A DNA stretch of 64,000 nucleotides from Tribonema minus (lineage: Eukaryota > Sar > Xanthophyceae > Tribonematales > Tribonemataceae): the NCBI GenBank assembly GCA_017506865.1, contig JAFCMP010000514.1, positions 682,001-746,000 on the forward strand, written 5' to 3'. This document shows, one piece after another, positions 14,462-57,800 of the stretch. How positions within the stretch are numbered: the stretch's first letter is position 1; each line of letters begins with the position of its first letter. The notes under the pieces were generated by a model that had not been told where the DNA came from, searched no databases, and saw nothing but the letters and a program-made list of their open reading frames with translations. Made by a program: the position numbers and the translations under genes.

Positions 14462-17011
14462 TCACCACCCCCTAATCAGCACCTGGGGGTCGTCCAGGAA
14501 GTCGCGCGGGCTCGGCAGCGCGCCGCCGCCCGCGACAGGGCTCAGCGGCCCCAGCGGCGACAGCGCACCGTGCGGCGAGAACGGGAACGCGCTCGCCCAC
14601 GCCTCTACGTCGCCACCGAGCACTGCCACATCTCGACTGAGCGCTGCGGCGTCGAGCTCCGTCTCCGCGGCGGCGGCGGCGGCGCGGCGCGGCGGCGGCA
14701 CGCACTCAAAGTCGAAGCGGCGGGGGCGGCGGCGCTCCTGCTGCTGCTGCTGCTGCGCGCAGCTGCCGCCGCCGAGGCGCGGCGGCGCGCCGAGCGCGTC
14801 GCAGCAGCGGTCTAGCACGAACGGGCTCAGCGCCGCGAACGGCCCCGGCGACGGGAGGAAGTCGCCGCCAAAGAGCGCGTCGGCAGTGCTCAGCGGCGCC
14901 GGCAGCGGGTACTCGTCGTAGTGCGGCTCGTCGCGCTGCTGCTGCTGCTGCTGCAGCGGCATGTGCGGCGCTGTGGCGGCGGCGGCGGAGAAGCCGCCGT
15001 GGCGGGTAAAGGCGGCGCCGCGGCCGCGGCCGCCGGCGCTGCCGTCGCGCAGGCGGCTTCCGCGGCAGCTGTTCGGGTGCTGCGGCACGCCGGGCGGCAG
15101 CGCGATGGGGTGTGGGAAGTGTTCGAGCCCATGGGTGCCACCATAGCCGCCGAGCGCTGACACTGGCGACGCCGGCACGGCGCCCAGTTCGCACTGCTCC
15201 GCTTCTGCGGCGGCAGCGGCGGCGGTGGCAGCGGCGGCGGCGGCAGCGCGTTGCTGCGCGAAGTACTCGATCGGCGGCGGGCGCAGCGCCCCCGGGGGGT
15301 GGTACGACTCCACGGCCGGGGGTTTGAGCGCGCCGCGCTGCGCCGGCTGCTGCTGCTGCTGCTGCGGCGGCGGCGGCCTAGCAGCGGCGGCGGCGGGGCG
15401 CGGCAGCGGCATCGGCGACAGCGGCCGCGGCGAGACCTGGCGCAGCAGCGGCGGCGACGCTGGCGGCGCGTTGTCGTCGTCGTACTCGAAACCATCGTCA
15501 CACTCCTCCTCCTCCTCCTCTGCCTCAAGCGCGTCAGTTTCGTCGGTTACGTCGGTTTCGTCCTCGAGAGCGCGCTGAGCGTCGTGGTTCGCCCAGACGG
15601 CGTCCGCCGGCGGCAGGCACAGGCCCGCGCGCGACAGCACCTCCAGCAGCAGGCGCAGGTGCTGCTGCCGCGTGTCGCGCGCCGCCGTCGCCGTCGCCAC
15701 GTCTGCGCAGCGCTGCTGCTGCTCCTGCTGCAGGCGTGCGCGCTTTAATGCTGGTGCGTCCTCGGCCGCTGCTGCTGCTGCTGCCGAGAGGTGCGGTGCG
15801 CTGGAGCGACGGCAGAGCGCTGCTGCTGTTGTGTTGAGCGATGAGATGGCATCTGCAGACCTTGAGCGGCCCATGCCTGCGGCGAAGCCGGCTTGCGCAG
15901 CGGCGGCGGAGCCTTTTGTTGGAGCTGTCGTAATCGCTGTTTCCGCACCTGCAGTTGACGTACAATCGCGCGTGAGGGTTAGGGTTAGGGTTTGTACAGC
16001 TCGCAGCGGCAAGCGCAAGAGGCAAGTGTCGAATTGAAGGCAACGTAATGATGGTGTGAGCGCGAAACGCTGCTCCATTCGTGCACGTCGCTCACTTCCA
16101 AAACATTCTTGCAGCGTCTCAGTGTTGTTCACGCCATGTTGCTGGCAGTGTGCTGGCACGCTTGCCACTGCGCACGCTGCATGACACTCCCGTGGTCAGC
16201 TTATGCCAATCTCCACGAGCTTTCTGTGCAATTGCTGGTTTGCATGCGCAGCTTCGTCGCTTCAATACTGAGCACTGAGCCGGGATGTGTCAGCACTGCT
16301 CAGCGGCCGGTGCGCATGCAGACCGCAACACATGTGTACCAGGTCATATAAAGGCCCCAAGGGCCAACATTACTCGATGACACATGATGACAACTACGTT
16401 AACGTGTTGCAGCGCAGACGCGCCATGCGCGCACGAGTACGCACCTGTGATGACGTACAGCTCGGGGCGCTTGCGCTTGGCAGCACCTGCGGCGCGCTGC
16501 TGCTGCTGCTGCTGCTGCGCCGCTGCCGCTGGCTGCGCCTCCGATGCCTGCTGTTCAACTTCAACTTCAACATCTTGGACGCCATCGGCGGACTCCTGGC
16601 CCCCCTTGCGGAGCGATGAGTGGCGCGCCGCTTCGACGAATGGGTTGGCTACCACCGCCGCCGCGATGGCAGCTGCTGTCACTACCGCAAAGGACTGCTT
16701 GGCTGTTGCAGAGAGATGGGGGAAGGCAATGCAGAGATTGCGCTATGTTAGGGTCTTGTAGCGATGTCATGAGCTATATTATAAATATGCAAGATTTGAT
16801 TCGAGCTCTGTGAAAAAGCGGTCTTGCAAGCGACTTCTTGATGCGCGCGTTTTGCGGTCTGCACATGCGTGGTGCGAGTCAGACAGGGCTCCCAGCGACA
16901 GATCACTCTGCCATGGCAGCAGCCACTGCGCAACGCAGAGAGGTGGCGGCGACTCCGTACTTGCCTGGCTTCCACGCGCCCTGCGGCTGCGGCGGCGCGC
17001 AAATTGGCGCG

Positions 17012-17043
<32 letters not shown>

Positions 17044-20000
17044 AACATTCACCGCCAAGTGCTGCTGCGCCTTCAGCGGCGGCGGCGCAAGCGGCAGCGG
17101 CAGCGACGGCGTTGCAACGACGACCGGCGGCGGCGCCAGCGCAAAACTGGCTTCTTGCAGCGCTTGCACGCTGCCGCCGTCCATGGGCGCCATCTCGGGC
17201 TTCGCATGGATCACTGTGACGGCGGCATTGGCGCTGCTGCTGTGTGCGGGAGGCGCGGCTGCTGCTGCGGCGCTGTCGCTGCCGGCGCACTGCTGCGCGG
17301 CGGGGCACGGATGGGGGTAGGTAAGTATGCGATGAGAAATGGGCATGTCGTTCACAGCCGCGCAGCACGGCACATACGCCGACGTGTCCGGGATCAGCTC
17401 CCGCGTTTATAGTGGGGCCTCTGCAAATTTTGCCAGCACCACTTTGCACACCATTCCTTAAAAACCGGCAGTCGTACATACTGCGTGCATACCTACTCTG
17501 GTGAACTCAGTGCACTGCGCTACTGGCGCTACCACACACCGTCATGTACGGTTGACAGACCATGAGCATCTGTTAAAAGCGTTGGCAGTGCATCCAGGCA
17601 GGAGTACACATGCAATTCAGATAAGGTCGCATATGTGCTACAGTACAGGCACACATCATTCGGACCCCAAATGGTTGGTAATGAAGGCACACGTGCACCA
17701 ACACCAAGAGTACACACACAGTACCCATGAAGGTCATATGAGTCACTCATATGTACTCCACCCCCTCAACCAAGAAGAGTCTCCTCGTCATCCGCAGCCC
17801 CCCTCTGCCTGCGGCGCACGTTCTTGCGCATCATCGAATACCAATGATGCTCAATGGCGTCCGTGTCAGCACCAGTACACTCGCAGATGGCGTCCGTGTC
17901 AGCACCAGTACACTCGCAGTTCACAAAAGAATCCCATTCATGACCCCTACAGTTCACAAGAGGGGCACACACAAAGTGTACTCCACACCCACTACTTGTT
18001 TGTCAACGGCTCCACTCACATTGCCGTCGCCGCCCCCTTCGCCATCCGCGCCCCCCTTCTGCCTGCGGCGCATGTTCTTGCGCATCGTCGAGTACCAGTG
18101 ATTCTTGATGGCGTTGTCCGTGCGCCCCGTCAGCAGCTTGGCGATCTCCGCCCACTTGTTGCCGAGGCGGCGCTGCGCGTCGTAAATGACCTGCTCTTCC
18201 TCCGACGTCCACGGCTCCTTCCGCAGGGACGGGTCCAGGTGGTTCAGCCACCTGCGGGGTACGTAGGTATCAAAGCAATGCACACATGTTGATTTGAGAG
18301 CTCGTTCGGCAGGGACGGGTCCAGGTGGTTCAACCACCTGTGGGGTACGTAGGTATCAAATCGATGCATACGTTGTGAGTTGAGAGCTTGTTCCTGTGGG
18401 GTAAGTAGGTACCAAAGCAATGCGCACATTATGATTTGAGAGCTCGTGCCTCAGGGACGGGTTCAGGTGGTTCAGCCACCTGTGGGGTAAGTAAGTACCG
18501 CAGTAATGCACATCATTCATTGCTCGAGTTCAGCTTCGCACAGTGCTCATTGCACCACCGCGCCGCCCGCAACCTCTCAACGCGCGGCCGCGGACACCTA
18601 CCTCGTGCGGCACTGTTTGCCGGAGCATGCGACCGATGTGAGAGACCGAGCAATGAGGACCCAGCGCTTCACGCCACAACGCTCATCACATGGCACAGCT
18701 CAACTGCAGCTCTTCTCACAGTACTCTGCGCAGCACCGCTCCGCGCGTAAGGACTCTCTCTCGCGAGCGCTCACCTCGTGCGGCACTGCTTGCCGGAGCG
18801 CACGACGCCGACGATCTCCATGTTGAGGTGCTGAGCGACGAGGGACCAGCGCTTGACGCCGTGCTCCGCAACCAGCCGCACTATCGCCTCGTCCTCGCAC
18901 CGCGTCCACGAGCGCCGCTCCGGCCTGCAGGTTGATCATTGCGGCACGCGGCGTCAGAACTTGCGGCACCGTGACAACAAGAAGCTGGAGTTGCAATGAG
19001 GACTCGTTTGTTTGACGTGTGAGTCCCCCCCCCCCAGATGAATGCGTCAAAACTTATAAATAAATATGCCTTGTCCTCCCGTTGCGTCCACGAGCGCCGC
19101 TCCGGCCTGCAGGTTGAGCGTTGACGCACGTGGCGTCAGTGTTGCTGCGCCGTGGCGGCGCACCCATCATGCACAGTTCAAGTTACAGCCAAGACCGTTT
19201 TCTTTCGCGTGTGTGTGTGTCCCCCTTGAATGTTGTACTCTGAATTACGTCAATGTTCGAGCGGTGTCCACGAGCTCCGCTGCATGCAGCGTCACACAGG
19301 GCCGAACTGCTACATCAGGATGGCGTGCTGGTGCTACAGCACCTAGCACCTTGAAGTGCTTTGAAAAACTGGTGGTGGCGGTAGTGCGCATTGGAACTTC
19401 AACTTATCAATGGCAAGCGAGGTAAGCATTCTCTACTGCTCACAGGTGGCCGCTTGACGCTTGCGCTGTGGTGCCACTGAAGGAGTCAACAGGTGAACTA
19501 TGAAGTGAGGGGGGGGGGGTGAATGAGAGCACATGCTGAGCTTGTGGCTCTTATGTAGCACTGATGTCCCGAGCCCACTGGAGTGCTTGTGTCTTCCACC
19601 AACAGGTTGACTATGTAAATCTATCACCAGTGCTAGTAGCAGCTGGTCTACTCAAAAAGCTGTACTGGCTGCAGGTGATGCCTCGCCATTGTGAAGAAGG
19701 CATGCACACAAGGCGAGGCGACAGAGTTGCAATAGCGATGCGCGATCCCACAGCAACGGGGGGTGGCTGCAGCTCAGGCCCATGGGAACCGAGGGACACG
19801 ATGCACGCCTGCCGTAGCTGTACACAGCTTTATTCACTACGACTCAGTCAGCCAGTAAGCCATCGGTATGAGTCGGCTTGCAGGGTGCAATCTGTGAGTT
19901 TCAGGTGGCAAAGTACCGACAGCACACTTGCCTCAATGGTTCTCCGCTGTCGCCGCAATCTCCCTCTCCCAGCAGAGATTCCATGTCGTGGTCCTCGAGC

Positions 20001-24532: not shown

Positions 24533-24828
24533 AAGTACATGATTAGGAGGAGGACGTAGGGGAGGACCCCGAGATGCCATTTGGCGGCGGCGGCATTTGA
24601 GTGGTTGTCGTTGCGACACTTTCAGACTGTCATACGACATGTAGATTCCTTACAGCTAGATGCCAATCATCTGGGCTTTTTCGCGCCCTGAGCGAGAATT
24701 AATAAGAAGTACATGATTGTCGTTGCGACACTTTCAGACTGTCATACGACATGTAGATTCCTTACAGCTAGATGCCAATCATCTGGGCTTTTCCGCGCTC
24801 TGAGCGAGAATTAATAAAAAGTACATGA
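24533..24828 (+). mobile_element. Two 5'-truncated LINE copies in tandem
   Basis: Copy 1 (24546-24706) starts within the last codons of the LINE ORF2; copy 2 (24717-24818) starts in its 3' UTR. Both are almost identical to 29540-29702. Each is bounded by AAGTACATGA (24533-24542, 24707-24716, 24819-24828), the same word that flanks the complete element. Confidence 0.9.
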
Positions 24829-25745
24829 ACCTGTTTCATGCCAACAAGACATTCAGAGTGGACAGCAGCGATGCCAGCGCGGGCAAGCACTGCCGCAAAT
24901 GCAGGCCTATCACTTCACCCGCTGCAGTGGCGGCAACATTGTCAACGACAGCATCAGCAGCACCGCTAGCACCTGATGCATCGACGGCAACAGCTACCAC
25001 GTCGCTGCCACAGCAGCAACCGGCGTGCACACCCATCGGCAACCCCTACGCAAAGGGACCAGCGCACGCGCAGCAGGCACCTGCTGCTCAGGCTGGTGGC
25101 AGCAGCTCCTCCGGCAGCTCAAAGAGGCCGGAACGCGGGGGCAGCAGTGCTACACGAGGGGGTCGGGGTCGCAGTGGAGGGCGCGGACGTGGCAATGGAG
25201 GACGCGTTCGCAGCGGCAGCAATGATGCAGACATCAGCAGTAGCAGAGCGACTAGCGGCAGCAGAACCGGAGGCGGCAGCAGCAGCGGTGCCGGCGGCGG
25301 CAGTGCAGCCGGTACTAAGGACAGCGGCGCTGGCAACGGCCGCATCAGTGATGCCAGCAGCCGCAGCGGCGGTGCTAGCAACAGCGGCAGTGGCGCGCGA
25401 ACTCAAAACGGCCGCGGTGGCCGTGGCAGCGGTCGCAGCAGCGACAGCGGCGGACGAGGCTGTGGTCGTGGCGGCCGCGGCGGCGGCGGAGGGGGCCCAG
25501 AGCGGCAGGTGCGGCGACAGCAGCGGCAGCGCCAGGCCCTGCAGGCGCAGCAGGTGGGGCAGGTGGGCTTTTCACGTGGACCATCTCAACCCCCGCAGTC
25601 GCAGCAGTGCTTGACAGCATCAGCCTCGATGAGCTGTGCAAGCTGCAGTTCGCGACAACTAGAAGCCTTGCTAGACCACGCAATCGTCGCTATGTGGGAG
25701 CTGCACTGGAGAACGCAGCAACACATCTGTTGGCACACACAATGA
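24825..25745 (+). CDS. LINE ORF1: Gly/Arg/Ser-rich RNA-binding-like protein
   Basis: 306 aa. A short N-terminus with a CRKC pair is followed by a long RGG-box-like region (GGRGRSGGRGRGNGGR, GRGGRGSGR). RGG regions bind RNA, so this may coat the transcript. The only usable ATG (24825) lies inside the AAGTACATGA target duplication. The frame overlaps ORF2 in the -1 frame and ends at 25745. Confidence 0.6.
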   Translation: MNLFHANKTFRVDSSDASAGKHCRKCRPITSPAAVAATLSTTASAAPLAPDASTATATTSLPQQQPACTPIGNPYAKGPAHAQQAPAAQAGGSSSSGSSKRPERGGSSATRGGRGRSGGRGRGNGGRVRSGSNDADISSSRATSGSRTGGGSSSGAGGGSAAGTKDSGAGNGRISDASSRSGGASNSGSGARTQNGRGGRGSGRSSDSGGRGCGRGGRGGGGGGPERQVRRQQRQRQALQAQQVGQVGFSRGPSQPPQSQQCLTASASMSCASCSSRQLEALLDHAIVAMWELHWRTQQHICWHTQ

Positions 25746-28700
25746 CGATGTTCGTCAATGCGGCGCGGGAGCCAGATTCCGCAGGGCGGGTGCAGCGACT
25801 GCAAAGATCCACGATTCTACACCACCTCATGCCATCACTCATCACCTCCACCGATGGCGCACCTGGCATCACTCGCTCCGACAGAATCAGAATGTTGGCA
25901 CGCGGTGAGCTTGACCGGTTGGTGCCAGCGCTCCTCGCACACGCGCGTGCGCACCGGCGCTGGCGCGCGCGCCAGCAAACGGAGGCAGCGATCAACGCCT
26001 ACGTCCTACAGTGCATGGGCACACGGGGGGGGCTACAGCAGGCAGCGCGTTTCCTTCAGCCCAAAACGGTGGCGATACCTGATGATGACTGCTTTGCCGC
26101 CATGCAGTCCAAACACCCCCCCGCTGCGCCAGGGGAACAACTCCATGAGCTATCCGGCATGGTTGATCAGCTTGTGGCGAAAGCAGCCGACATGCCAGCA
26201 GAACTCAGCCTGTTACAGGGGGAGGGAATTGAGCCAGAGACGGTTGCCAAGCTCATCCAGCGAGCAAGCCCTTACAGTGGAGCAGGCCCATCGGGGCTGC
26301 GCTACAGCCACCTGCAGGATGCGCTACGCACAAGCTGGGGACGGCATGAGTTTGCTGCTGTCCTCACACGGTGGCTTCAGACCGTTATGCGGGAGGCTGC
26401 GCGGCTGCCGGATGCCTTCTGGCAGTTGCATGGCGCGGGGCGCCTGACGCCACTTGCAGAACAACAGGAAGATGGTACAGCTAAGCAGCGGCCCATCGTT
26501 TGCGGCGAGGTGCTGCAGCGACTATGCACGTCGGTGTACGTGGCAGACCGCAAAGACTTCCTGGCGGAGCTCCTTGAGCCAGACGGGCAGTATGGGGTAG
26601 CCGTCTCAGCAGGAGCGGAGAAAGCGGCCATGGCCGGCAAACTCGCGTATGAGCTCGGTCACTGGCAGTTCATGCTGGACCTCAAGAATGCCTTCAACAT
26701 GGTGTTCGTCCTGGCGGCAGCGGAATGGGTAGCAGCACAGCTGCCGGACTTCCTCGACTACTTCATCGGCACATACGTTCGCACTCGGCCACGCCTGCTG
26801 TTCCAGCACGTTGACGGCTCCACGCGCATCATCATGTCTCAGCGCGGGTTTAAGCAGGGGGACCCCGCGGCACCGATGCTCTTCTGCGGCGCGATTGCTC
26901 AGTGCTTGAAACGGTTCAATGAGGCGGCGGCTGCGCAGCGCGCGCGGAGGCGGATGGGCGCCTACATGGACGATGCCAACGTCCGAACAGGCGCTTGCAC
27001 GCTGACTCAGGATGACATACAGGCGGTGGCGCAGCTCAAACAACACTTTGCGGAGGTGGGGCTAGAGCTAAACCTCACCAAGTCACGCGCGCTGCCTGGC
27101 AGGGGGCATGTGGTGACAGACCACGAGCGGCAACTGCTGCAGCAGCTGGGCGTTCAGCTAGTGGGGGATACGGATGAAAATCAGAACCGTGGAGCTGTGT
27201 TGCTGGGGGTGCCGGTGGGCCACAGCAGCTTTGTGGACGCATGGCTGCGCAGGGAAGCGGGTGCAGGCGGGGCAGGGGCTCGATTTGCAGAGCGATGCGC
27301 GCGCCTGACATCTCCGAGGGCTATGTTCAGGTTACTGCGCTACTGCGTGGTGCCTCGCATGACGTACTGCCTGCGCACCATTCCCACTACGCAGACAGCG
27401 CCAGCCGCCAAGGAGTGGGATCGGGTCACGCAGTGGGTGCTTGAGCACTCAATGGGCCTGCAGCCACCAGGCCAGACCTGGCGCCAGTTTGAGCAAAGTG
27501 GGGCCCACTTCCATCTGGCAGCGCACGGCCCAGCCTTACAGCAAGCGCGACTCCCAACACGGCATGGCGGCCTTGGCATTACCAGCGCCTGCGACATCGC
27601 TGATGCTGCGTATGTGGCGGGCACGTTGCAAGCGCTGCAACCAGCACTCTCTGGATGGGCGGGGGTGCTGCAGCAGGCGGCTCCTCAAGCGGCTGCAGAC
27701 AACGCTGCTGAGGATGCGGCAACACAAGCGGCACCGGCAGCAGCGGCAGCAGCACCAGCACCAGCAGCATCAGCAGCGGCAACTGTTGAAGCGGCAGCGG
27801 CGGTTGCCAGTGGAGGCGCGACCGCTCCGGCAGCGGCAACTGCATCAGCGGCTGGCCGCGCTTATGGCGCAGCCATTCCGGCAACACACGACGCAGCTGC
27901 CGCTGGATCAGGGGCCGCGGCGGCAGCACAGGCGGCACCAGCGGCAGCAGCAGCAGCGGCGGCGCACGGCGCAACTACTCCGGCGGCAGCAGCAGCGGCG
28001 GCAGCAGCAGCTGCTCCAGCATCAGAGGCTGCTGCAGCAGCGGCAGCACATGTTGCACCTCAAGTGGCCTCGGCGGCATCACTAACTGCAGCATCAACAG
28101 CAGCGGCTGCGGGCATAGGCAATACAGCTGCTACAGGCCCTACTAGCCTAAGGGCTGCTGCAGCACCTGCAACAGAAGCAGCGTCGGCAGGCGGCGCCGC
28201 AACCGTGCCGGCTGCGACAGCGGCAATGGCGGTGGCAGCGGCCAATGCGGCAGGTGCTGCACCAACACCTGCGGCAGCAGCAACACCACTGGCAGCAGCA
28301 GCAACGGCAGGCGGCACAGCAGCACCAGCGCACGCAGCAGCGGCAGCCGTCAATGCAGGCGCTGCGCGTTCCACACCAGCAATGCTACAAGGCGCAGCAG
28401 CAGCAGAGGTGGCGCGCCTGCCCCTCATGCGGACGATCGCCACAGCTGCCACATCTCTACGTGCAGCAACAGGTGACAAGCTGGAACATATACTGCCACC
28501 AGCGCTAACGCCACTGCAGCAGCAACCACCTACGCAGCAGCCGCCGCTGCGGCCGACAGCAGGTGGTGGCACTGGTGCGGATGCTGCTTGCGTACTTGAC
28601 GCCAGTGCTCTGCAGTTGCAGTGTAGCCTGAAGCGCCCCAATCAGAGTGCGCTTGCAGATGCCGTCGCTACCGAGCTTGCAGATAAGGTGGAGGCGGACC

Positions 28701-29702
28701 TGCAACAGCTGCCGCAGGGCACGCAACGCACGCAAGCACTTGCTCGATTCCGGTCGCAGCGCCACATGCACTCGATCGGCATGGCATTCCTCAACGAGCC
28801 CATGTACTCCACAACGGCTTCGTTCGATGGCCTATCCTGGCAGCTGGCCGTCAAACGCGCCATCGGAGTAGAGGAGCAGACGGCAGGCTGCAAGCTGTGC
28901 GGGAAGTCGCCGGGCGGCACCCTGCATGCACGGCTGTGTCAAGCGCCACGCGTCAAGGCGCACGACACCATTGTCCACAATAGCGTCAAGAGGGCCACGC
29001 AGCGCCTCCTGCGGCAATACCTCAAAACGGGACTGGTGGACGAGGACTACACGCCGTTTCTGGGGTCCGCCGGGCCGCCGGGGAGTCGCAGGATGGACAT
29101 CGTGCTGCCTGCCGACGCCTTCCCGGTGACCGGCTACGACGACCCGACACGCCACCTACCGCTCATGGTGGACGTTACCTGCTTCGAGGCACAGGTGGCG
29201 TCGCGGGCGGCGAAGACTGCAGCAGACCCCGAGCGATGTTGCCGCGACCAAGAGGCCGCCAAGACTACCCACTATTCTGGTCATTATGATCAGAATTGCT
29301 ACAAACTTGCCACATTGGCAATAGGGTCATTTGGCAACATCGGGGAGCAGGGGCGGAAGCTGCTGGAGGCTGTGGCGACGGAGTATGCCAGCAGGATGTC
29401 AGTGCCCGGAGGAGCGCGCCCTAAAGCTCTCAAGGGCATCGCCCTGGCGCGCTTACGCTCGGCACTGTCGGCAGCGCTCCACATGGCGTACTCTGGCCGT
29501 GTCATGACACACATGGCAGAATCCAGGGGGGGGGGGCACATGGAGGAGGACGTAGGGGAGGACCCCGAGATGCCATTTGGCGGCGGCGGCGTTTGAGTGG
29601 TTGTCGTTGCGACACTTTCAGACTGTCATACGACATGTAGATTCCTTACAGCTAGATGCCAATCATCTGGGCTTTTTCGCGCCCTGAGCGAGAATTAATA
29701 AA
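24829..29702 (+). mobile_element. Full-length non-LTR retrotransposon, early-branching REL-endonuclease type
   Basis: A 4.87-kb element with ORF1 (RGG-rich) and ORF2 (reverse transcriptase, zinc knuckle, restriction-like endonuclease) and a 106-bp 3' UTR ending GAGAATTAATAAA. The flanks AAGTACATGA (24819-24828 and 29703-29712) are its target duplication. RT plus a C-terminal CCHC and an RxD..VDV nuclease places it with the R2/CRE/NeSL/Utopia-type LINEs; the exact clade is not settled. There is no APE endonuclease. It appears intact. Other copies in the window are 24546-24706, 24717-24818, 45856-46155 and 57561-57636. Confidence 0.9.
25607..29596 (+). CDS. LINE ORF2: reverse transcriptase with restriction-like endonuclease
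   Basis: 1,329 codons from the GTG at 25607; the frame is open further upstream (GLFTWTISTPAVAAVL), so the true N-terminus is earlier or joined to ORF1. The RT fingers motif GPSGLRYSHL is near residue 227, motif A LDLKNAFNM has Asp 358, motif B GFKQGDP is 414-420 and motif C YMDD is 453-456. Residues about 685-935 are an alanine-rich insert. A zinc knuckle CX2CX8HX3C (Cys 1095, Cys 1098, His 1107, Cys 1111) precedes the nuclease core, with R-x-D (1162-1164) and VDV (Asp 1189) followed by a Lys-rich helix. These residues match restriction-like nucleases that nick the target and prime reverse transcription. All catalytic residues are present. Confidence 0.9.
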   Translation: MLDSISLDELCKLQFATTRSLARPRNRRYVGAALENAATHLLAHTMTMFVNAAREPDSAGRVQRLQRSTILHHLMPSLITSTDGAPGITRSDRIRMLARGELDRLVPALLAHARAHRRWRARQQTEAAINAYVLQCMGTRGGLQQAARFLQPKTVAIPDDDCFAAMQSKHPPAAPGEQLHELSGMVDQLVAKAADMPAELSLLQGEGIEPETVAKLIQRASPYSGAGPSGLRYSHLQDALRTSWGRHEFAAVLTRWLQTVMREAARLPDAFWQLHGAGRLTPLAEQQEDGTAKQRPIVCGEVLQRLCTSVYVADRKDFLAELLEPDGQYGVAVSAGAEKAAMAGKLAYELGHWQFMLDLKNAFNMVFVLAAAEWVAAQLPDFLDYFIGTYVRTRPRLLFQHVDGSTRIIMSQRGFKQGDPAAPMLFCGAIAQCLKRFNEAAAAQRARRRMGAYMDDANVRTGACTLTQDDIQAVAQLKQHFAEVGLELNLTKSRALPGRGHVVTDHERQLLQQLGVQLVGDTDENQNRGAVLLGVPVGHSSFVDAWLRREAGAGGAGARFAERCARLTSPRAMFRLLRYCVVPRMTYCLRTIPTTQTAPAAKEWDRVTQWVLEHSMGLQPPGQTWRQFEQSGAHFHLAAHGPALQQARLPTRHGGLGITSACDIADAAYVAGTLQALQPALSGWAGVLQQAAPQAAADNAAEDAATQAAPAAAAAAPAPAASAAATVEAAAAVASGGATAPAAATASAAGRAYGAAIPATHDAAAAGSGAAAAAQAAPAAAAAAAAHGATTPAAAAAAAAAAAPASEAAAAAAAHVAPQVASAASLTAASTAAAAGIGNTAATGPTSLRAAAAPATEAASAGGAATVPAATAAMAVAAANAAGAAPTPAAAATPLAAAATAGGTAAPAHAAAAAVNAGAARSTPAMLQGAAAAEVARLPLMRTIATAATSLRAATGDKLEHILPPALTPLQQQPPTQQPPLRPTAGGGTGADAACVLDASALQLQCSLKRPNQSALADAVATELADKVEADLQQLPQGTQRTQALARFRSQRHMHSIGMAFLNEPMYSTTASFDGLSWQLAVKRAIGVEEQTAGCKLCGKSPGGTLHARLCQAPRVKAHDTIVHNSVKRATQRLLRQYLKTGLVDEDYTPFLGSAGPPGSRRMDIVLPADAFPVTGYDDPTRHLPLMVDVTCFEAQVASRAAKTAADPERCCRDQEAAKTTHYSGHYDQNCYKLATLAIGSFGNIGEQGRKLLEAVATEYASRMSVPGGARPKALKGIALARLRSALSAALHMAYSGRVMTHMAESRGGGHMEEDVGEDPEMPFGGGGV

Positions 29703-42569: not shown

Positions 42570-45500
42570 ATGAGCTGGAATTTCGTCATGCGTGCCTTCC
42601 TGGTGCTGACAATCTGCGCTGTTCCAGGCAGTGCTTTCAACCATAGCTTGCCAGGAGGTACCGCCTGTCGCGTGCCTGGTCCAGCGGCTTCTGCCAGACC
42701 TCACACACGACAACAGCGGTCTTGCCTTCGCATGGCGTCCATCAGTCCACCGACCAAGCCTCCCGAACTCAAGGTGTGTGAGCGCGCGTCACGATACACC
42801 GTTGTGTTCTGTCCCGTAAGGCCGGCAAGCTGCTGCTGCCACAGTGTTCTGCTTGTGATCATCGATGTGCTTCGACGCTTTCGCCAGTACTATCGTGAAT
42901 CTTGAAGTGCGCGAATTGCAGTTCTTCATAATCATAAAACCTGATCGACGAAGGCGGCATCAAGTATGATAGTCCACACTCGCTGATCGGGATGGGGACG
43001 CGTATCAATACACTCGTGGACGACCTTTATCGCGCGTTGTTCAATGTCGTGCACTGAAGCCATAGATCCGGCAAGAAGCATTCTGCATGCACCAGTAGCA
43101 GCGCTCCACGAGCCCCACTGGTGCGGCAGTAGTCAGACCATCAGTGACCAATAAAGGTCTACATAGTCACGCGGTCATTGAATTGTACACACTACACGGT
43201 CTTTTTCAACCGAATCCCTCAAAATACGGCGACGGCGGCAACGATTTTTACCTAATGTAACATCGATGACGAGGAGAAGCAGCTAGTGCTGGGGGGGTGG
43301 ATAGGGTACTCAAAGAGTAGATCTACTTGAAATTAGGACTAAATTTGAGGGGTCTCACACATTCAGCACCAACAGCACTCACAGCCATCGCACAATCACA
43401 GTACACATCACACAGCTTCCCTTCCACTCTCAGAAATACGGCGGCGGCGGCAACGACCCCTACATACGCGACATTGACGACGAGGAGAAGCAGCTGGTGC
43501 TAGGGGGGTGGATAGGGTATTCGCGGCGCATCGCGATGGAAGAGGAGGATCCCCGGCTGGAGGAGTTCATGCAGGTCTGCAGGAAGATGCAGGCGTGGCG
43601 GCGGGGGACGGGGGGCGCGCGCAAACGGAGGTGAGGGCTAGGGTTAGGGTTAAGGTTAGGGTTGGAGTCGGATTGGAGTCGGGCTTGCGGTCAGGGGTAG
43701 GGTGGATGCCTGGGTTAGTGTTAAGGTCGGGGTGGGACTTGCAGCGAGGGGCAGGGGTGGATGCTCGTGGTCTAATACATGGGAGGCGCGCGCAAACGGA
43801 GGTGAGCGGGTAGGGTTACAGTTAAGGTTGGGGTTAAGGTTATGGTTAGGGTTACAGTCAAGTTTGAACATGAGTACATGGTTGCCGTTAGCATGAATGC
43901 AGGTCTGATACACGGGCGGCATGCGCAAACGGAGGTGAGGGTTAGGGTTAGGGTTAGCTTAGGATAAGAGTTAGGGTAGGAGTCGGGGTTGTGGTTAGGG
44001 TTAGGGTGGATGCTCGTGGTCTTAGAGAAGAGGGCGGCGCGAATACATATCCTAGCCCTAATCCTACCCCAAAACCTACAGACTGATACCTGGGCGGCAA
44101 GTGCAAACGCGTGTGAGGGCTAGGGTTAGGGTTAGGGATAGAGTCAGATTTGTGTTAGGGGTTAGGACTGATGCTCCTGAACTTCCGAAACAGGGGCCGG
44201 CGTGGACTGGAAGACGATCACTGACACTTTGAACCCGGGGCCCCGTGGACTGGAAGGCGATGCAGCGCTTTACACGACTAACACAGCGCCGACAACACAA
44301 GCAGGTTGGGGTTAGGGTTAGGGTTAGGGTTAGGATTAGGGCTGTGCACGCTGGACTGGGCAACCTACTTGTGTCATAGGCGATCTGTCCGTAGCTGGAG
44401 GCGCTTGAGGCGCTGCAATGGGGCCTGGGTTCAGAGTGTCAGTGGGTCGTCTTCCAGTCCGGCTTGAGGTGCTGACTGCACTTGGAGCCGGTGCGTTTTC
44501 TGGTGCTGCACTGTGGCCGCATAAGCCAACGGTCAGCCCGGTGTGAACACGGTGCCGTTCGCTTGGCACCAAATGCCGCATTGGGGTCGTGGTCATCTGC
44601 GCAAGGGCATGTGAAGGACACGAAATATTCTGCTCCCCGTCTCTCAGCTTGATGTTTCTGAGTCCGCGTGCAGCAGCCTTTGCCGCTGCGCCACTAAATA
44701 CTATCCCTGGATCAAGGCCAGCTGAACAATAGCTTCACTTCAACTTCAACATGAAGTTTGAAGGACCCTCAACCGCGGATATAACGAGAAGTTACATCAT
44801 GCAAATCACTGTATATGATTCGCCTATGCAGGGGAGCACATATCAGTGCCCTGCATAATGAATAAGTCGAGGAAAACAAAGCTATCAAGTACCACATACG
44901 TTTCCTTTGTTTAAACATAACTGACGGACATCTTGAGACGGAGTGAAAACTGGGCAGATGGAGCTAGAAAGAGGAGGTTACACATCTAGCGCGGCAAATC
45001 TAGGGGACCAGACAAGGCTCCTGACACGCGCTCCGCGTGCGACGCTACCGCGTGTAGGTGAGGAAGGGAGAACGCTACGGATAGCTCATGCTGAACAACC
45101 TGGAGCTTTCGTGTCGCCGCATGCTGGTTTAAAACCCACTCACCACCTTCTACACTGCGCGCATTCAAGAGCGCTGTCAGTAGCTGCTGCACCTCATGCG
45201 TTGGGCTGCCAGCTGGAGCTGGCCTACCGAACACGTGAGACCTTTCCATACTGAACACCCATGCCCCGAATGCTGAAAAGCTTGCACACAGAAGTCTTTT
45301 GACTACTGTGGATATGATGGCACAGCTTGACTCGTAGCCAACGTTCTGCAACAGCGGCGACCACATTTATTGGTGGAAGGCACTTGCGGCTAACCACTCC
45401 TTGTTACCTGGAGCTCTACGATCATTTTTGGGATACGTTTCCATATTTATATACTTCTATATTGTTACACCCACAGATCATCTACACACACATATACACA

Positions 45501-48500
45501 TGCACGCACATGTGTGTATATATATGATGCTCACGTATATATGTAATGTGCATGCGGGTTTGCGCTCGCTGCGTGCCAAGGGGGACCATCATCTTCAAAC
45601 ACATATACATTTGCATACGCATGTGTATCTATGATGCTCACGCATGTATGTACGTATATATGTAATGTGTATGCAGATTTGCTCTCGCGGCGTGTCAAGG
45701 GAGTGTACGTATATATCATATTATGTAATGTGTATGCAGGTTTGCTCTCGCGGCGTGTCAAGGGAGGGGACCATCATCTACACACACATATACATGTATG
45801 CACACACATGTGAATATATGATGCTCACGCATATTATGTACATATATATGTACTTTTTATTAATTCTCGCTCAGGGCGCGAAAAAGCCCAGATGATTGGC
45901 ATCTAGCTGTAAGGAATCTACATGTCGTATGACAGTCTGAAAGTGTCGCAACGACAACCACTCAAACGCCGCCGCCGCCAAATGGCATCTCGGGGTCCTC
46001 CCCTACGTCCTCCTCCATGTGCCCCCCCCCCCTGGATTCTGCCATGTGTGTCATGACACGGCCAGAGTACGCCATGTGGAGCGCTGCCGACAGTGCCGAG
46101 CGTAAGCGCGCCAGGGCGATGCCCTTGAGAGCTTTAGGGCGCGCTCCTCCGGGCACTATGTACTTCTATGCAGGTTTGCACTCGCGGCATGTCAGGGGGA
46201 CAATCATCTACACACACATATACATATGCACACACATAACGTACATATCCAGATGCGGTACACGTACATATACACACACATGTGTATGATGTACATACTT
46301 ACACACATATCGTATATATACACACACACATGTAAATGTACGGTGCTTACGCACTCGTGTATGTATGTATTTATGCAGGTTTGCGCTCGCGGCGTGCCAA
46401 GGGGACAATGTAGATGCCGTCGTCTGCGTGCAGATAGGGCCCGACAACCGCAGCTTCGCGGCATTCATCACGCAGGTGAAGTGACCTTGCAAAGCGTGCA
46501 AGTGAGGTACAGTATACTGTGGCGGCAACGTACCACAAATAGGTCTACAGAGAGTACTATAGGGCCAGACAACCGCAGCTTCTCGGCCTTCATCACGCGG
46601 GTGCTCCGACCGCCAGAAACTAGCGCCGGTGCTCTGTGTTGATGTTGTGGCGACAACCATGCAGTTTCGTTTCTCGGCGTTTATGACGTAGCTTGACCTC
46701 GCAAACGAAGCATGCGAGTGAGAGCCGCTTTACCGTGTTTATATCGCAGCGCAAGCTGTTTGTGATGCGGTGCAAACAGTTGCACAGAGAGCACAAGTGC
46801 TCGTGACCCCCCCCCCCTTCTGTCGTTGAAGAGTGAATGTCAACCGCCACCTACTTCCCACAGCCAGCATAGTGGTTGCAGCAGTGACCCTAACCCTAAC
46901 ACCGAGTACGGCAACGTTTGGTGTCAGGGTCAGGTTTGGGGTCAGGGTTAGGGCTAGAATTCTTTGTCCGATGATCATCGTGCGAGCCACACGCGCAGGA
47001 CAGGATTATGTATACACATCAATTTTGTGACTACATACCTTCAAACATACATGTTATTGGTACACCAGACCACCGCTGCGCTGCTTGGCAAGGGAATTAT
47101 AGGGTAGGTACTAGGTAGTCCAGAGCTGTAGACAACTGCAGCAGCGCTCCCACAGTCGAATCCTGTGTTTGTCATCCTCTCCAGTCTATGTAGGAGCCTT
47201 TCGCTCCTGTGCGCTAAAAGGTCTTTGCTAGCCGGTCCTTGCGCCCGCAACTTGCAGTGTGCACACAAAGCTTGCATGGGGCTGAGCCTGTGTAGTTGAA
47301 GTAGCATCATCACAGCAGTCGAGTAGCTTATGGCCCCTGTCGTGGTGATGCTCAGCCATAAGAGGGCACAACAACGCTCAGCAATATATTATGCAAAGTG
47401 GTTTTTGTTTGAAAGAAAGGCTCTACAGCAGCTCACGGTGGCGCTTTACACGCCCCAAGCACTCACACTCAGTGTGTCTGCAACACATTGGCAACCGAAC
47501 CGTGCTCGCAACTCAAAGCCTTCCGTTTCTGTGTATTCGCTTGCAGGACATGGTGATGACAGTGGGGTTTATTGCCGTCAGCCCCTCAAGAGCCAAGCTG
47601 GGTGCGGGAACGTTCCTGGTGAAACAGCTCAAGGAAATCGGGCGAGCACAAGGGGTGAGTTTTGGGTTCAGCATTGGCGTCTGAGCTGGGATCGTGGCGC
47701 AGCGGAATGTGGTCATCTGCTTCGCGTGTTGCATCTTGAAGTACACAGCTGCACTTCTTGAAGTGTGCTAGTCTGCACATTTCTACGAATGTGCGTTTGA
47801 GGTGCAGTTTGCGCTTCGTCTTGACATCCACTACCTGGTGCCAAGAGACTGCGCCACGGACTCTATGCGCGCTGCGTATAGAACCCGCAAGAGCATCGCG
47901 CACAGCAGCGTCATGGGCGTCCACAGCCGTGTCAGTTGCATGCGGCATTAGGATCAGGATGAGACATGGCACTGAGATGCAGGGGTGAGGTATACTCATT
48001 GCTCTAGCATTGTGAGCACGTCCTCTTGTGTCGGCATGCGTGGTGCTTTGGCATCGAGTGCCGCGACCAGGATCAGTGGTAAAGGGCAGGGTTCGGGTAC
48101 GAGTAGCGCACACGCTGTTGCACAACAAGTTCGGCACAGAAAGCCAGGTGTCAATCAGAATTAGGGTTAGGGTTAAGGCTAGGGTTAGGTGCTTGCTGCA
48201 CCACGCTTCATATCATGTTGATCACTCCAATGCCCTGCATCGCCATGTGCAAAGCGCTTGGAGTGCCGCTACCCTGACACCTGGTAGCATGAAGGGTTTG
48301 AGTCATTGCCTGCCGCGCGAGAGAGTTAGGTTATGGGTCAGCGTAGTGTAGATCAAGTGTCAGGGTTACGATTACGATGCGTGCTGCACCACAAGAAGCT
48401 CACCACAATACATCAGGGTTAATCATAGGTTGAGTTTAAGGCTAGGGTACAAAGCGCTCCACGCTGTTGGTAGCTGATCCCGGGCTGCACGCCGATGCTT

Positions 48501-48588
48501 TGCCGTGCCTGCGCAGATCCGCGTGGACTTTGAGCCGCTCAAGGAGGTCTACAAGGGCCGCTTCTACCTGGCGTCCATCTCCATGTAA
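42570..48588 (+). CDS. Plastid-targeted protein, possibly GNAT-like acetyltransferase, six exons
   Basis: Exons 42570-42773, 43434-43630, 46379-46475, 47547-47654, 47808-47930 and 48517-48588 join in phase to 266 aa. The N-terminus has a hydrophobic signal peptide (VMRAFLVLTICAV) ending GSAF, the S-A-F motif of heterokont bipartite plastid leaders, then a Ser/Arg-rich transit region. The mature part includes DDEEKQLVLGGWIGYSRRIA, VDAVVCVQIGPDNRSFAAF, VGFIAVSPSRAKLGAGTFLV and GFALRLDIHYLVPRD. The strand-turn-helix around AVSPSRAKLGAGT followed by QLKEIGRAQGF recalls the acetyl-CoA loop of GNAT enzymes, but the match is weak. If exon 2 were not spliced it would stop at 43634 (134 aa). The donor GGAG|gtgagg and the matching phase of exon 3 favour splicing. 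Exon 5 uses a less usual donor, CGT|gtcagt. Confidence 0.78.
43211..43312 (+). pseudogene. Degenerate copy of plastid-gene exon 2
   Basis: Repeats 43431-43525: AAATACGGCGACGGCGGCAA, then GATGACGAGGAGAAGCAGCT and GGGGTGGATAGGGTA. It carries stops and lies 220 bp upstream of the real exon in the same intron. Confidence 0.85.
43622..44345 (+). repeat. Array of exon-2 donor copies alternating with TTAGGG repeats
   Basis: The end of exon 2 plus its donor (GCAAACGGAGGTGAG) recurs at about 43791 and 43921, and in weaker form at 44100. Each copy runs into degenerate TTAGGG units; the longest perfect tract is at 44305-44340. The period is about 130-180 bp. Confidence 0.88.
44986..45249 (-). CDS. Small hypothetical ORF, 87 aa
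   Basis: Antisense within intron 2 of the plastid-protein gene. It opens MERSHVFGRPAPAG and contains GEWVLNQHAATRKLQVVQHE. Amphipathic composition and an ATG start make it worth listing, but no family, splice site or promoter supports it. Confidence 0.25.
   Translation of the reverse strand: MERSHVFGRPAPAGSPTHEVQQLLTALLNARSVEGGEWVLNQHAATRKLQVVQHELSVAFSLPHLHAVASHAERVSGALSGPLDLPR
45261..45452 (+). repeat. Dispersed intronic repeat, copy 3
   Basis: Same family as 5644-5814 and 7836-8010, more diverged (TTATTGGTGGAAGGCACTTG core). It again sits in an intron on the sense strand of the host gene. Confidence 0.75.
45552..46410 (+). repeat. Tandem copies of the exon-3 5' edge with AT-rich spacer
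   Basis: The acceptor and first codons of exon 3 (GCAGGTTTGCGCTCGCGGCG) occur at about 45555, 45669, 45734 and 46168 before the functional copy at 46375. Spacers are CACACATATACATG-rich. A LINE fragment is inserted between copies 3 and 4. Confidence 0.88.
45856..46155 (-). mobile_element. 5'-truncated LINE copy, recent
   Basis: 300 bp matching the 3' end of the 24829-29702 element (last 65 ORF2 codons and 3' UTR), apparently identical where compared. A perfect 9-bp target duplication TATGTACTT (45847-45855 and 46156-46164) flanks it. The insertion split the exon-edge repeat array, so it is younger than the array. Confidence 0.92.
46559..46725 (+). repeat. Two decaying copies of the exon-3 3' edge
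   Basis: The first (46559-46606) repeats the codons for GPDNRSFAAFIT as GPDNRSFSAFIT with the following GTG. The second (46648-46725) keeps CGACAACC, TTTATGACG and the intron context TTGACCTCGCAAACG. Both lie just 3' of the real exon. Confidence 0.82.
46888..46955. repeat. Interstitial telomere-like tract
   Basis: CCCTAACCCTAA at 46890-46901 and degenerate GGGTCAGG/GGGTTAGGG units at 46924-46953 on the other strand, forming a loose inverted pair in intron 3 of the plastid-protein gene. Confidence 0.65.
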
Positions 48589-54800: not shown

Positions 54801-57800
54801 GGGAGTCAGGGCGACAGGGAGTCAGTGGCGCCATGCGTTATCAATAGCACTGTCAGGGAATACACACATTTTCTCTTTTGACAACCATACAGCTGGCGCA
54901 TTCTAACAAAGTTTGTGCCCGCAGGCTCAGCATGAGCACAAGTCATTGCTCAAGTTCTGACAATAGCATTAGATTCTTCCATCAGGACGGCCGCGGCAGC
55001 AAAACCATCTGACCACGTTTCAATCACTCAGTGAGCCCCCTGGAGGATCCTCTCGGCTGAAATGCGAGCCAGAGAGCCAAAAAGAGACTGAGACATTTGT
55101 CCGTAGTCAAGTCATCAGGGCACAGGAATCATTGGCATTGGGTGATGTCACATTTTAGTCCTATGTCAGGGGCACTGTTGACTTGCTAGATTGTTCATAT
55201 TCAAGTTGATGATTATCCTGATGTGTTGTCACGGTTTCAGGAGCATTGGTGCCATCCGAACTTGATCTCCAAGTAAAGTTTCAATCCATCCACTGATCAA
55301 TGTGCAGTACCACAGCTCAACCTGCCTCAAATTCAACAAAACAGATAGTCAGCAGGTGACTCAGAGGTCACCAAGTTGTACTACTGTATTCACCTCAACA
55401 GTTACTAATCAACTCCAACGTCCTGACAGACATCACTGCAGCATAATGTCTCAATTGCCTTTGACTTGCTGGGTAAAGCAATTGTGTTGGGGCCGACCGA
55501 ACCCTGGTCTGACTGTTGCAAACCCGCCAGTGTGGACAATGACGTCGCTACCCGTAACTACGTATGTAGAAGGTAATAAGGGAGTATTGTTCGGATCCTG
55601 AGACCATTACCGTATTACTGACTAACCCTAGCATTAGGTTTAGCTAACCCTAGCTCTAACTCTTAGGCTAGCCCTGACCGAGAGAATAACTTGTTGTTGT
55701 TTTTGTTCTTGGGCAACGAAAGTTTGGCGTTCGGCCTTCCGCTTCTTGGTGGCATCGACGGCCTTCCGTATGTTGTTGGCCGACTTTACTGCATCATTCA
55801 CGGCCTGTTGCACGTTATCTGGCAGGTCGTCCTTGCGTGCGCAATCCCCGCTCCCGATTGAGTGCAAGGTGCGCAACGAGGCGTGACAGCTGATTGCCAC
55901 CAAACGCACAGTGGCACTGCCAAAACTTGCATTGCCATTTGCTGCCCTTAGCGCTGGCTGCGCTGTCGGTACAAAAGCCCATTACACGTTTTTCTCCTCC
56001 GTGGGAGGCCAGCTCCGCAGCTTTGCGCTTCAACACTTTGTTACTGCGAAAAGCATGTCTAGCCATAGCCTAGTTGAAAACTTCAACCCTTCTTGCAAAC
56101 TTCAACCAACATCTAACCCTAAAATCTAGCCAGTAATACCGCACGGTAACAAAATTCCGGCTAGTACCGGATACGTGCGTTCGTACGCACTCAAAACAGC
56201 GGGTATTATAATCACACTGCCAGAGAGTGCTGCTGCCATTCAGCACGTCCCTGAATTGTTGTGGCAATCCACTCATGTTTCTAAAACATGAGACAAGTGC
56301 TGTCATGAGCATATTTCAGACTTCAATTCTTCTGTGATGAGATGCTTTGAGTTCATCCCTTTGAACAATGCCATACTTCAACAAACACGATTAGCACGTC
56401 ACAAGCAGAGATAGCGCGTACACCCGTGGCGCGCATACGAGTACGAGTTTTTGATGCGCTGTTAACTCTCCCGTGGCCACGGAATAACTCGCACGCGTAA
56501 CCTGTTGTGCGAGGCAACGAGTGAAAGCTGCACTGGTCCACAGCTGATACTCGTGGTACGAATATTCTCATGTTTCTGCTTTTCGCGAGCTCGCGAGAAT
56601 AAATCCCTTGAAGTTGGGTTGGGCCGAAGTTATTTGATTGCGAGCAAGCACCGACGAGAGAACAGGTCATTCATCCGTCTTCAATAGCTGACCCCGTAGT
56701 GGCTCAGCTCGGACGCAGTGGCTTCCTATAGCAAGCATAAAGCGAGCATTCGTTTTCATCGACTCAAAGTTCAACGCCACGCTGCGCTGGCCCCAGAGCT
56801 ACTGCCAAAGAGATGTGCATGTTAGTAAGCTGCACGTACATTGTACATGCCAATTACCAAGTGCTTCTCAATCTGAATCAAAACATCCAGCTGTGTATTG
56901 TGCCTTTTGAAGCACGCACGGCTTTCGAGCCTTGACGAGCCTCAACAGAGGATGTTGGCAGGGCAGATTCAAGCTTATAAATATTGTGGTACGCGACATA
57001 GGACACTGCTGCAAGGAATCTGGTACAACAGCTCAAAAACTCGCTGAAACAGGTAAATAACTTGTACGATCAGCAATCACCCGTTCAACAAGTATACGCG
57101 TACCCGTTTCACAGAGCACGAGTTTAACTCATACCCGTAGCCGCTCTCACAAGTATTTCAGTACTCGTACGTGTACTTCTAGAATTGTTTTCGCGCTACG
57201 CGCGACCTGTTTGACGATGGCACTACGCGCCATCTCTGCCACATAGTCTATAATATGCGGCATTATCTACTCAATGAACTTTTGTATGCTTAGATGAGTA
57301 GTACTCATCATCGTTCTCATGCTTACCCCTCAAACTGAGGCAAAGCTCTGTGTCGTGTTTGCAAACCTCAACGACCAATCACCGCTGCAGTACTTCGACG
57401 TCAATGTATTAACTATTTGTACTGCCAGCGTTCATGAGTGTGAGCTACAGTACATGGTATGTGCAGTGCCAGCACGCGGCTGCACAATTTACGGTAGAAC
57501 CAGCAATCATGATGAAAGTACAAGCAAGGCCTGATGGTTATTATGCAGCACTAAAGGTACTTTGTATTAATTCTCGCACAGGGCGCGAAACAGCCCATAA
57601 ATGGCATCTTTTGCTGTACGGAATCTACATGTCGTCAAAGGTACATGAAAGGACCTGGTATTGCATCTACAGCCGAGCCAGAATGTGCTGGGCATCGTAA
57701 AGCAGTGGAACAGCCTTTGACAATGACAATTATCACCTATCCGCACTGATTGATGCTTCAAGTGGGAAATCCTATGCAGCCACAGCGACTGTCGTGGCAC

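Follow-up and report, generated by a model that had tools for sequence, protein, structure and literature searches.

We describe here a gene whose introns carry repeated copies of its own exon edges, in a stretch of DNA of 64,000 nucleotides from Tribonema minus (Xanthophyceae; NCBI GenBank assembly GCA_017506865.1, contig JAFCMP010000514.1, positions 682,001 to 746,000 of the forward strand). This stretch, hereafter the window, belongs to a 158-Mb genome in 554 contigs, and the gene in question is a nuclear gene of five exons. Pervasive local tandem duplication very probably makes introns grow in this genome while splicing keeps the outermost site, and the telomere-like repeats found in one of the arrays were probably carried inside the copied units and not newly added at every splice site. 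We observed splice-edge copies with common junctions in a gene whose reading frame is maintained, a retroelement inserted among these copies, and a genome-wide excess of donor pairs on the same strand.

Splice-edge arrays of the host gene

The exons lie on the forward strand at 42570–42773, 43434–43630, 46379–46475, 47547–47654 and 48517–48588 (the last including the stop), and their joining at predicted splice sites gives a single frame for a protein of 225 amino acids with a terminal stop. Intron 2 (43631–46378; 2748 bp, forward strand) has GT and AG at its ends, and the joining across it keeps the frame. For two of the four donors and two of the four acceptors of this gene, a copy is present inside the gene's own intron, and the copies are head-to-tail direct repeats spanning exon and intron, i.e. 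tandem duplications across a splice boundary.

The donor-edge array of intron 2 (43596–44272, forward strand) is composed of the true edge and three intronic copies at spacings of about 171, 133 and 178, with a telomere-like tract in each unit. When the exon edge is marked by a slash, the true donor at 43631 reads gcaaacggag/GTGAGGGCTAGG, and the copies read gcaaacggag/GTGAGCGGGTAG at 43802, gcaaacggag/GTGAGGGTTAGG at 43935 and gcaaacgcgt/GTGAGGGCTAGG at 44113; a further, very degenerate copy lies near 44300. The full edge gcaaacggag/GTGAG is intact in the copies at 43802 and 43935. An earlier reading of this DNA, made from the letters alone (the sequence-only reading), had reported at least three donor copies running straight into TTAGGG repeats; the number of copies holds, but the exact junction GGAG/GTGAGGGTTAGGG occurs only at 43935, and after the other edges the sequence is telomere-like but degenerate. 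The exon-derived edge is beyond chance, with a donor-window score of 40 where the controls reached 15 at most; the BLAST E-values for this array are inflated by its G-rich low complexity.

Copies 1–3 are preceded, as judged by eye, by a common stretch of about 18 nt (GTCTRATAC..GGGNGGC, with one variant letter in copy 3), whereas the true exon 2 is without it and has coding sequence at that place. Because this junction is common to the three copies and is not in the exon, the copies derive from each other and not from separate copyings of the exon. The telomere-like tract occupies the same position in every unit and, since the copies have common junctions, it was probably copied along rather than re-added. 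Beyond the tract, units 0 and 2 have an exact 15-mer in common, and one of 500 resamples was as good; for the remaining five pairs of units, 9, 24, 25, 54 and 107 of 500 resamples were as good.

Donor-containing units repeated inside introns may also recall a mobile introner-like element that carries donor and tract with it, and Introners were reported in 5% of the species searched (PMC9860276, available text). The unit here, however, includes the host gene's own exon edge, and a genome search with 181 bp of the array gave ten matches, of which eight lay elsewhere and covered the G-rich tract part only and two lay in the host gene; this search was of limited sensitivity, as other copies of the donor array were not reported by it. 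We regard a mobile unit as highly improbable.

The acceptor-edge array (45468–46405, forward strand) contains four intronic copies, at 45556, 45675, 45738 and 46172, upstream of the true acceptor at 46379, in agreement with the number given by the sequence-only reading. In three of these four, GGGGACMAT is directly followed by CATCTACACAC or by a closely similar sequence (by eye). This junction is not in the exon, and the array is therefore one tandem duplication that has been re-amplified. Between the third and fourth copies lies the 3' end of a long interspersed nuclear element (LINE), 5'-truncated and antisense (45848–46157, minus strand; 310 bp), which the earlier reading did not mention. 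It is 100% identical to 29710–29401, the 3' end of an element with a reverse transcriptase domain (PF00078) within 25379–29596. A candidate target duplication, TATGTACTT, is present at either side of the copy but is ambiguous, given its resemblance to the 3' end of the element itself. Parts of the LINE 3' tail also occur as tandem repeats at 24605–24828, with similar sequence at 57539–57635.

Tandem repeats are error-prone in assembly, and arrays such as these might be suspected of being collapsed or mis-joined repeats. Yet the copies are diverged, with identities of about 60–67% among whole donor units and mostly 71–97% among copied edges; a LINE insertion sits inside one array; and the same pattern is found in other genes on other contigs. 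An assembly artefact is scarcely credible on these grounds.

Smaller duplications are found in the neighbouring introns, both as had been claimed. In intron 1, 43218–43311 (forward strand) is a dead copy of the start of exon 2 (43429–43522), identical at 83% of 95 columns (E=3e-18) and containing in-frame stops. In intron 3, the end of exon 3 is repeated at 46559–46603 (125 bp downstream, 91%) and, together with the start of intron 3, at 46651–46737, both on the forward strand; either score was reached by none of 500 Markov resamples.

Telomere-like tracts and splice donors

The sequence-only reading had proposed telomeric repair or telomerase action at breaks in donor sites. According to this explanation, TTAGGG would be added repeatedly at broken donors, and the resulting instability would then copy the edge. 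TTAGGG is likely to be the telomere repeat of this genome, because the complementary repeat stands at the start of contig C2, and it is abundant inside chromosomes ((TTAGGG)3 has 11474 overlapping matches genome-wide). GTGAGGG is GTTAGGG with one substitution, and mammalian telomeric insertions often begin in register with an exposed GG, GGT or GGG and can duplicate their flanks (PMC7215372, available text).

Donors are nevertheless not favoured starting points. TTAGGG comes after about 1.8% of the occurrences of AGGTGAGGG in the genome, compared with 6.1% for the non-donor word AGGTCAGGG and 6.5% for AGGTAAGGG (estimates from the total counts and the letter shares among the first 100 matches listed). 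In 206 kb of sequence, TTAGGG comes directly after 3 of 38 occurrences of GTGAGGG, compared with 23 of 200 occurrences of other words that differ from GTTAGGG by a single letter. The expectation that tracts start at GTGAGG donors more often than chance finds no support in either comparison. Among 26 tracts in 186 kb, only three have GTGAGGG at most 16 nt upstream, and two of these are in the donor array itself; the acceptor array is without a perfect TTAGGG pair, and so are the surroundings of the exon-3 copies. The common junctions of the donor copies and the unvarying place of the tract within them also speak for a tract that was copied.

The one hint of a donor preference comes from the letter after AGGT. 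The word AGGTVAGGGTTAGGG has 229 matches in the genome (V = G26 C62 A12), AGGTVAGGG has 6087 (G55 C38 A7) and TTAGGGTVAGGG has 3202 (G14 A26 C60), where the shares were counted by hand among the first 100 matches listed for each word, which lie on the first contigs and do not sample the genome at random. The share of G, 26 with AGGTVAGGGTTAGGG and 14 with TTAGGGTVAGGG, is a mild excess that speaks somewhat for a preference and would be expected from the presence of a few real donors. We judge repeated telomeric addition at broken donors to be unlikely, and an attractive account is thereby removed as unsupported. A single founding telomeric insertion beside the donor at 43631, in register with GGG as in mammals, is possible.

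On the forward strand of the window, GTGAGGGTTAGGG occurs at 15972 and 43935 only. At the former place, GTGAGGGTTAGGGTTAGGG (15972–15990, forward strand) runs antisense to a large minus-strand open frame (14462–16195), and is a donor-like word ahead of a tract, probably not a true donor.

Edge copies in other genes and in the whole genome

That the same copying affects an unrelated gene, and that the process is general, had been suggested earlier and is borne out at three levels. In the window itself, a Myb gene has an acceptor-edge tandem repeat (18206–18460, minus strand) that represents the same phenomenon. For the second level we used chaperonin genes (Cpn60/TCP1), which are mutual paralogues unrelated to the host gene and which were located by Pfam (56 matches) and modelled in ten regions. 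The gene models took 50 of the 56 matches, leaving out four that we took for dead copies or extra matches of a nearby exon (contigs C5, C51 and C135) and two matches of C51 beyond the sequence covered; where the profile positions of two exons were far apart or overlapped strongly, the pair was skipped, and four exon pairs remained without a model. We thus obtained 27 introns from nine of the ten regions, C51 giving none, and the edge-copy count covers the 26 introns of at least 200 bp, one shorter intron being excluded.

An edge copy is present in 16 of these 26 introns, which come from nine gene regions: for ten of 26 donors and eight of 26 acceptors, the adjoining intron contains a copy that scores above all cross-gene and shuffled controls. 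By a looser rule, applied to all 27 introns, 21 of 54 edges are copied. In C5, C51 and C135 the Pfam profile has two or three matches to one and the same part of an exon, and self-comparison found direct repeats overlapping exon cores in seven regions (C5, C235a, C51, C279a, C279b, C135 and C544), to which the edge comparison added an acceptor copy in C516, making eight of the ten; in C511 and C235b self-comparison gave no direct repeat overlapping exon cores. Introns with an edge copy are longer (median 651 bp vs 362.5 bp without, p=0.035), as is expected if copies lengthen introns and also if longer introns give more room for copies.

The best copies (23 with scores of at least 18, one more than passed in the edge-copy count) lie at offsets of 92–821, with a median of 186. 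A nucleosome-sized period is not claimed, for the offsets have this wide range and a scan of 124 kb around the gene gave no clear peak. GT or AG is kept in 17 of the 23, and this, together with the full edge kept at 43802 and 43935, might be taken to mean that duplicated exons or decoy splice sites are functional and retained for alternative splicing. The exon-2 copy, on the other hand, has stop codons, and copies are not significantly more frequent at edges than in intron interiors, so that we consider such retention very unlikely.

At the third level, the word AGGTGAG followed on the same strand by AGGTGAG 135–165 nt further on (142–172 bp apart) has 1092 matches genome-wide. The reversed word at the same spacing has 68, and AGGTGAG followed by its complement CTCACCT occurs at 79 inverted places, each listed on both strands. 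Because same-strand pairs can arise on both strands, the chance level is about 2 x 79, and the excess of same-strand pairs is about sevenfold. Some of the 1092 pairs are simple repeats, and the inverted places are partly non-independent, since those in C112 and C179, in C66, C218 and C345, and in C90, C179 and C293 have sequence in common and are likely to be dispersed repeats. The location of donors on one strand within a gene could add to the excess; the nearest neighbouring donors of the modelled chaperonin genes are 348 bp apart, beyond the spacing of these pairs. We further compared the flanks of nine neighbouring donor pairs from eight loci, picked by eye among the first 100 matches listed, and in seven of the nine the downstream flanks are similar (0 or 1 of 300 shuffles as good). 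On the minus strand of C2, donor-bearing repeats at 1045691, 1045986 and 1046281 are nearly identical at 295-bp spacing, which suggests a very recent duplication. In the 124 kb around the host gene there are 97 direct local repeats, compared with 0 in one Markov resample.

Several observations weigh against this reading. In the donor array, the homology between tracts is weak for copy 1, as seen in the six unit comparisons (1, 9, 24, 25, 54 and 107 of 500), and in intron 1 the flank upstream of the exon-2 copy is only weakly and not significantly similar (54 of 500 resamples as good). Two of the nine donor pairs are without downstream flank similarity. Local inverted repeats are also common in the 124 kb (54, compared with 1 in the resample); pooled donor-like hexamers at 100–300 bp there give 72 direct and 63 inverted pairs, i.e. 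little same-strand excess; AGGTGAG by itself gives too few pairs in this stretch (2 and 0); and the direct/inverted ratio over all non-simple 7-mers is 1.66, a modest general bias. Lastly, copying is not confined to edges: with copies for 64 of 253 interior 60-mers of chaperonin introns and for 6 of 36 exon-core middles, the edges (18 of 52) are not significantly richer than either (p=0.17 and p=0.09, respectively), and we do not claim edge-specific copying. We accordingly take the copying to be a general, local tandem duplication, in which the exon-spanning cases may be conspicuous partly because a conserved exon keeps similarity readable for longer.

In such a process, short segments (copy offsets mostly 90–380 bp, often about 150) would be duplicated head to tail, repeatedly and across the genome. 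Duplication across a donor would leave the first donor in use and turn the new copies into intron, duplication across an acceptor would leave the last acceptor in use, and in either case the protein would remain unchanged while the intron lengthens. For intron 2, a unit made up of roughly 20 nt from the end of exon 2, the donor and the adjoining telomere-like tract would have been re-amplified to four copies, and a unit of the acceptor and about 25–31 nt of exon 3 to five, the LINE copy having interrupted the latter array later. This order of events and the use of the outermost splice sites are what we infer, and the molecular step may have been staggered-break fill-in, slippage or unequal exchange. 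The mechanism is a known one, on what looks like an unusual scale as judged within this one genome.

A broader proposal, which we put forward with considerable doubt, is that introns here grow mainly by continual tandem duplication, that genes are consequently full of near-identical decoy sites, and that the spliceosome picks the outermost site. If this is true, sites would be chosen by position or exon definition and not by the surrounding 50–60 nt, and the copies would be natural internal controls. Local tandem duplication may be what largely determines intron length here, and dead exon edges would be the record from which this can be read. How a splice site is chosen among near-identical copies could be tested at many places in this genome that are natural experiments, in each of which a true site stands next to a nearly identical copy.

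The host protein, neighbouring repeats and known systems

The 225-aa protein matched PF00583 (GNAT acetyltransferase) with 21.3 bits against a curated cut-off of 20.7 (E=3.4e-4), a marginal pass, and an incomplete version of it scored 15.3 bits, under the cut-off; the protein may thus be called marginally GNAT-like. A PDB search with it gave three matches at E<=1, none informative, the best (1.4e-4) being to a short stretch of SAKe6FE, and an Rfam scan of the window gave no matches. The leader encoded by exon 1 has a GSAF motif and looks like a signal plus plastid-transit sequence, GSAF/ASAF being a motif that we take to mark plastid-targeting leaders of this kind. The genome has two RbcL-like matches, and the one read (L051, C334:714136–714324) is a nuclear fragment of red-type Rubisco that contains a stop and is probably plastid DNA transferred to the nucleus. 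Its best PDB matches (about 101 bits) are to entries that are presumably diatom and red-algal, whereas 1gk8 and 3rub, presumably green, give about 61–63 bits. Because of this preference, and because an RbcS search of the genome gave no match, the lineage probably carries a red-type plastid.

Intron 2 also contains an imperfect inverted repeat (44204–44460; 62.6% over 270 columns) and a dispersed repeat (45261–45440, forward strand), which is 81–82% similar to 7836–8002 and 5648–5813. A near-palindromic motif, ACTTCAAGTT or AACTTGAAGT, is abundant in many stretches, e.g. around 42902 and at 47733–47760, and in introns among the AGGTGAG pairs listed, and the 124 kb contain ACTTCAA/TTGAAGT 99 times when both strands are counted; these stretches are possibly a dispersed short repeat family.

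Intronic minisatellites consist of diverged head-to-tail units, and the arrays described here are like them in having diverged head-to-tail units of about 100–200 bp but unlike them in that the units take in splice sites together with exon edges. Interstitial telomeric sequences inserted at double-strand breaks (PMC7215372, available text) are short TTAGGG tracts inside chromosomes, in some cases within introns; the tract here resembles them but appears to be multiplied within a larger unit and is without donor preference. Introner elements (PMC9860276) are likewise intronic units repeated with splice sites, whereas the unit here comes from the host gene's own exon and its non-tract part is not dispersed, as far as the one search of limited sensitivity goes.

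That introns can be gained by tandem genomic duplication is accepted (PMC3443670), and among the titles and abstract openings found in our literature searches, which in part concerned intron duplication, none described genome-wide intron growth by edge duplication. The closest parallel is the RdRp gene of potato, where, according to the available text, a tandem duplication crosses an intron-exon boundary (PMC4974935). In both cases, additional splice sites come from a tandem duplication inside the gene; in Tribonema minus, unlike in potato, it is existing introns that are lengthened, re-amplification has turned the copies into arrays, and the process recurs in many genes of the same genome.

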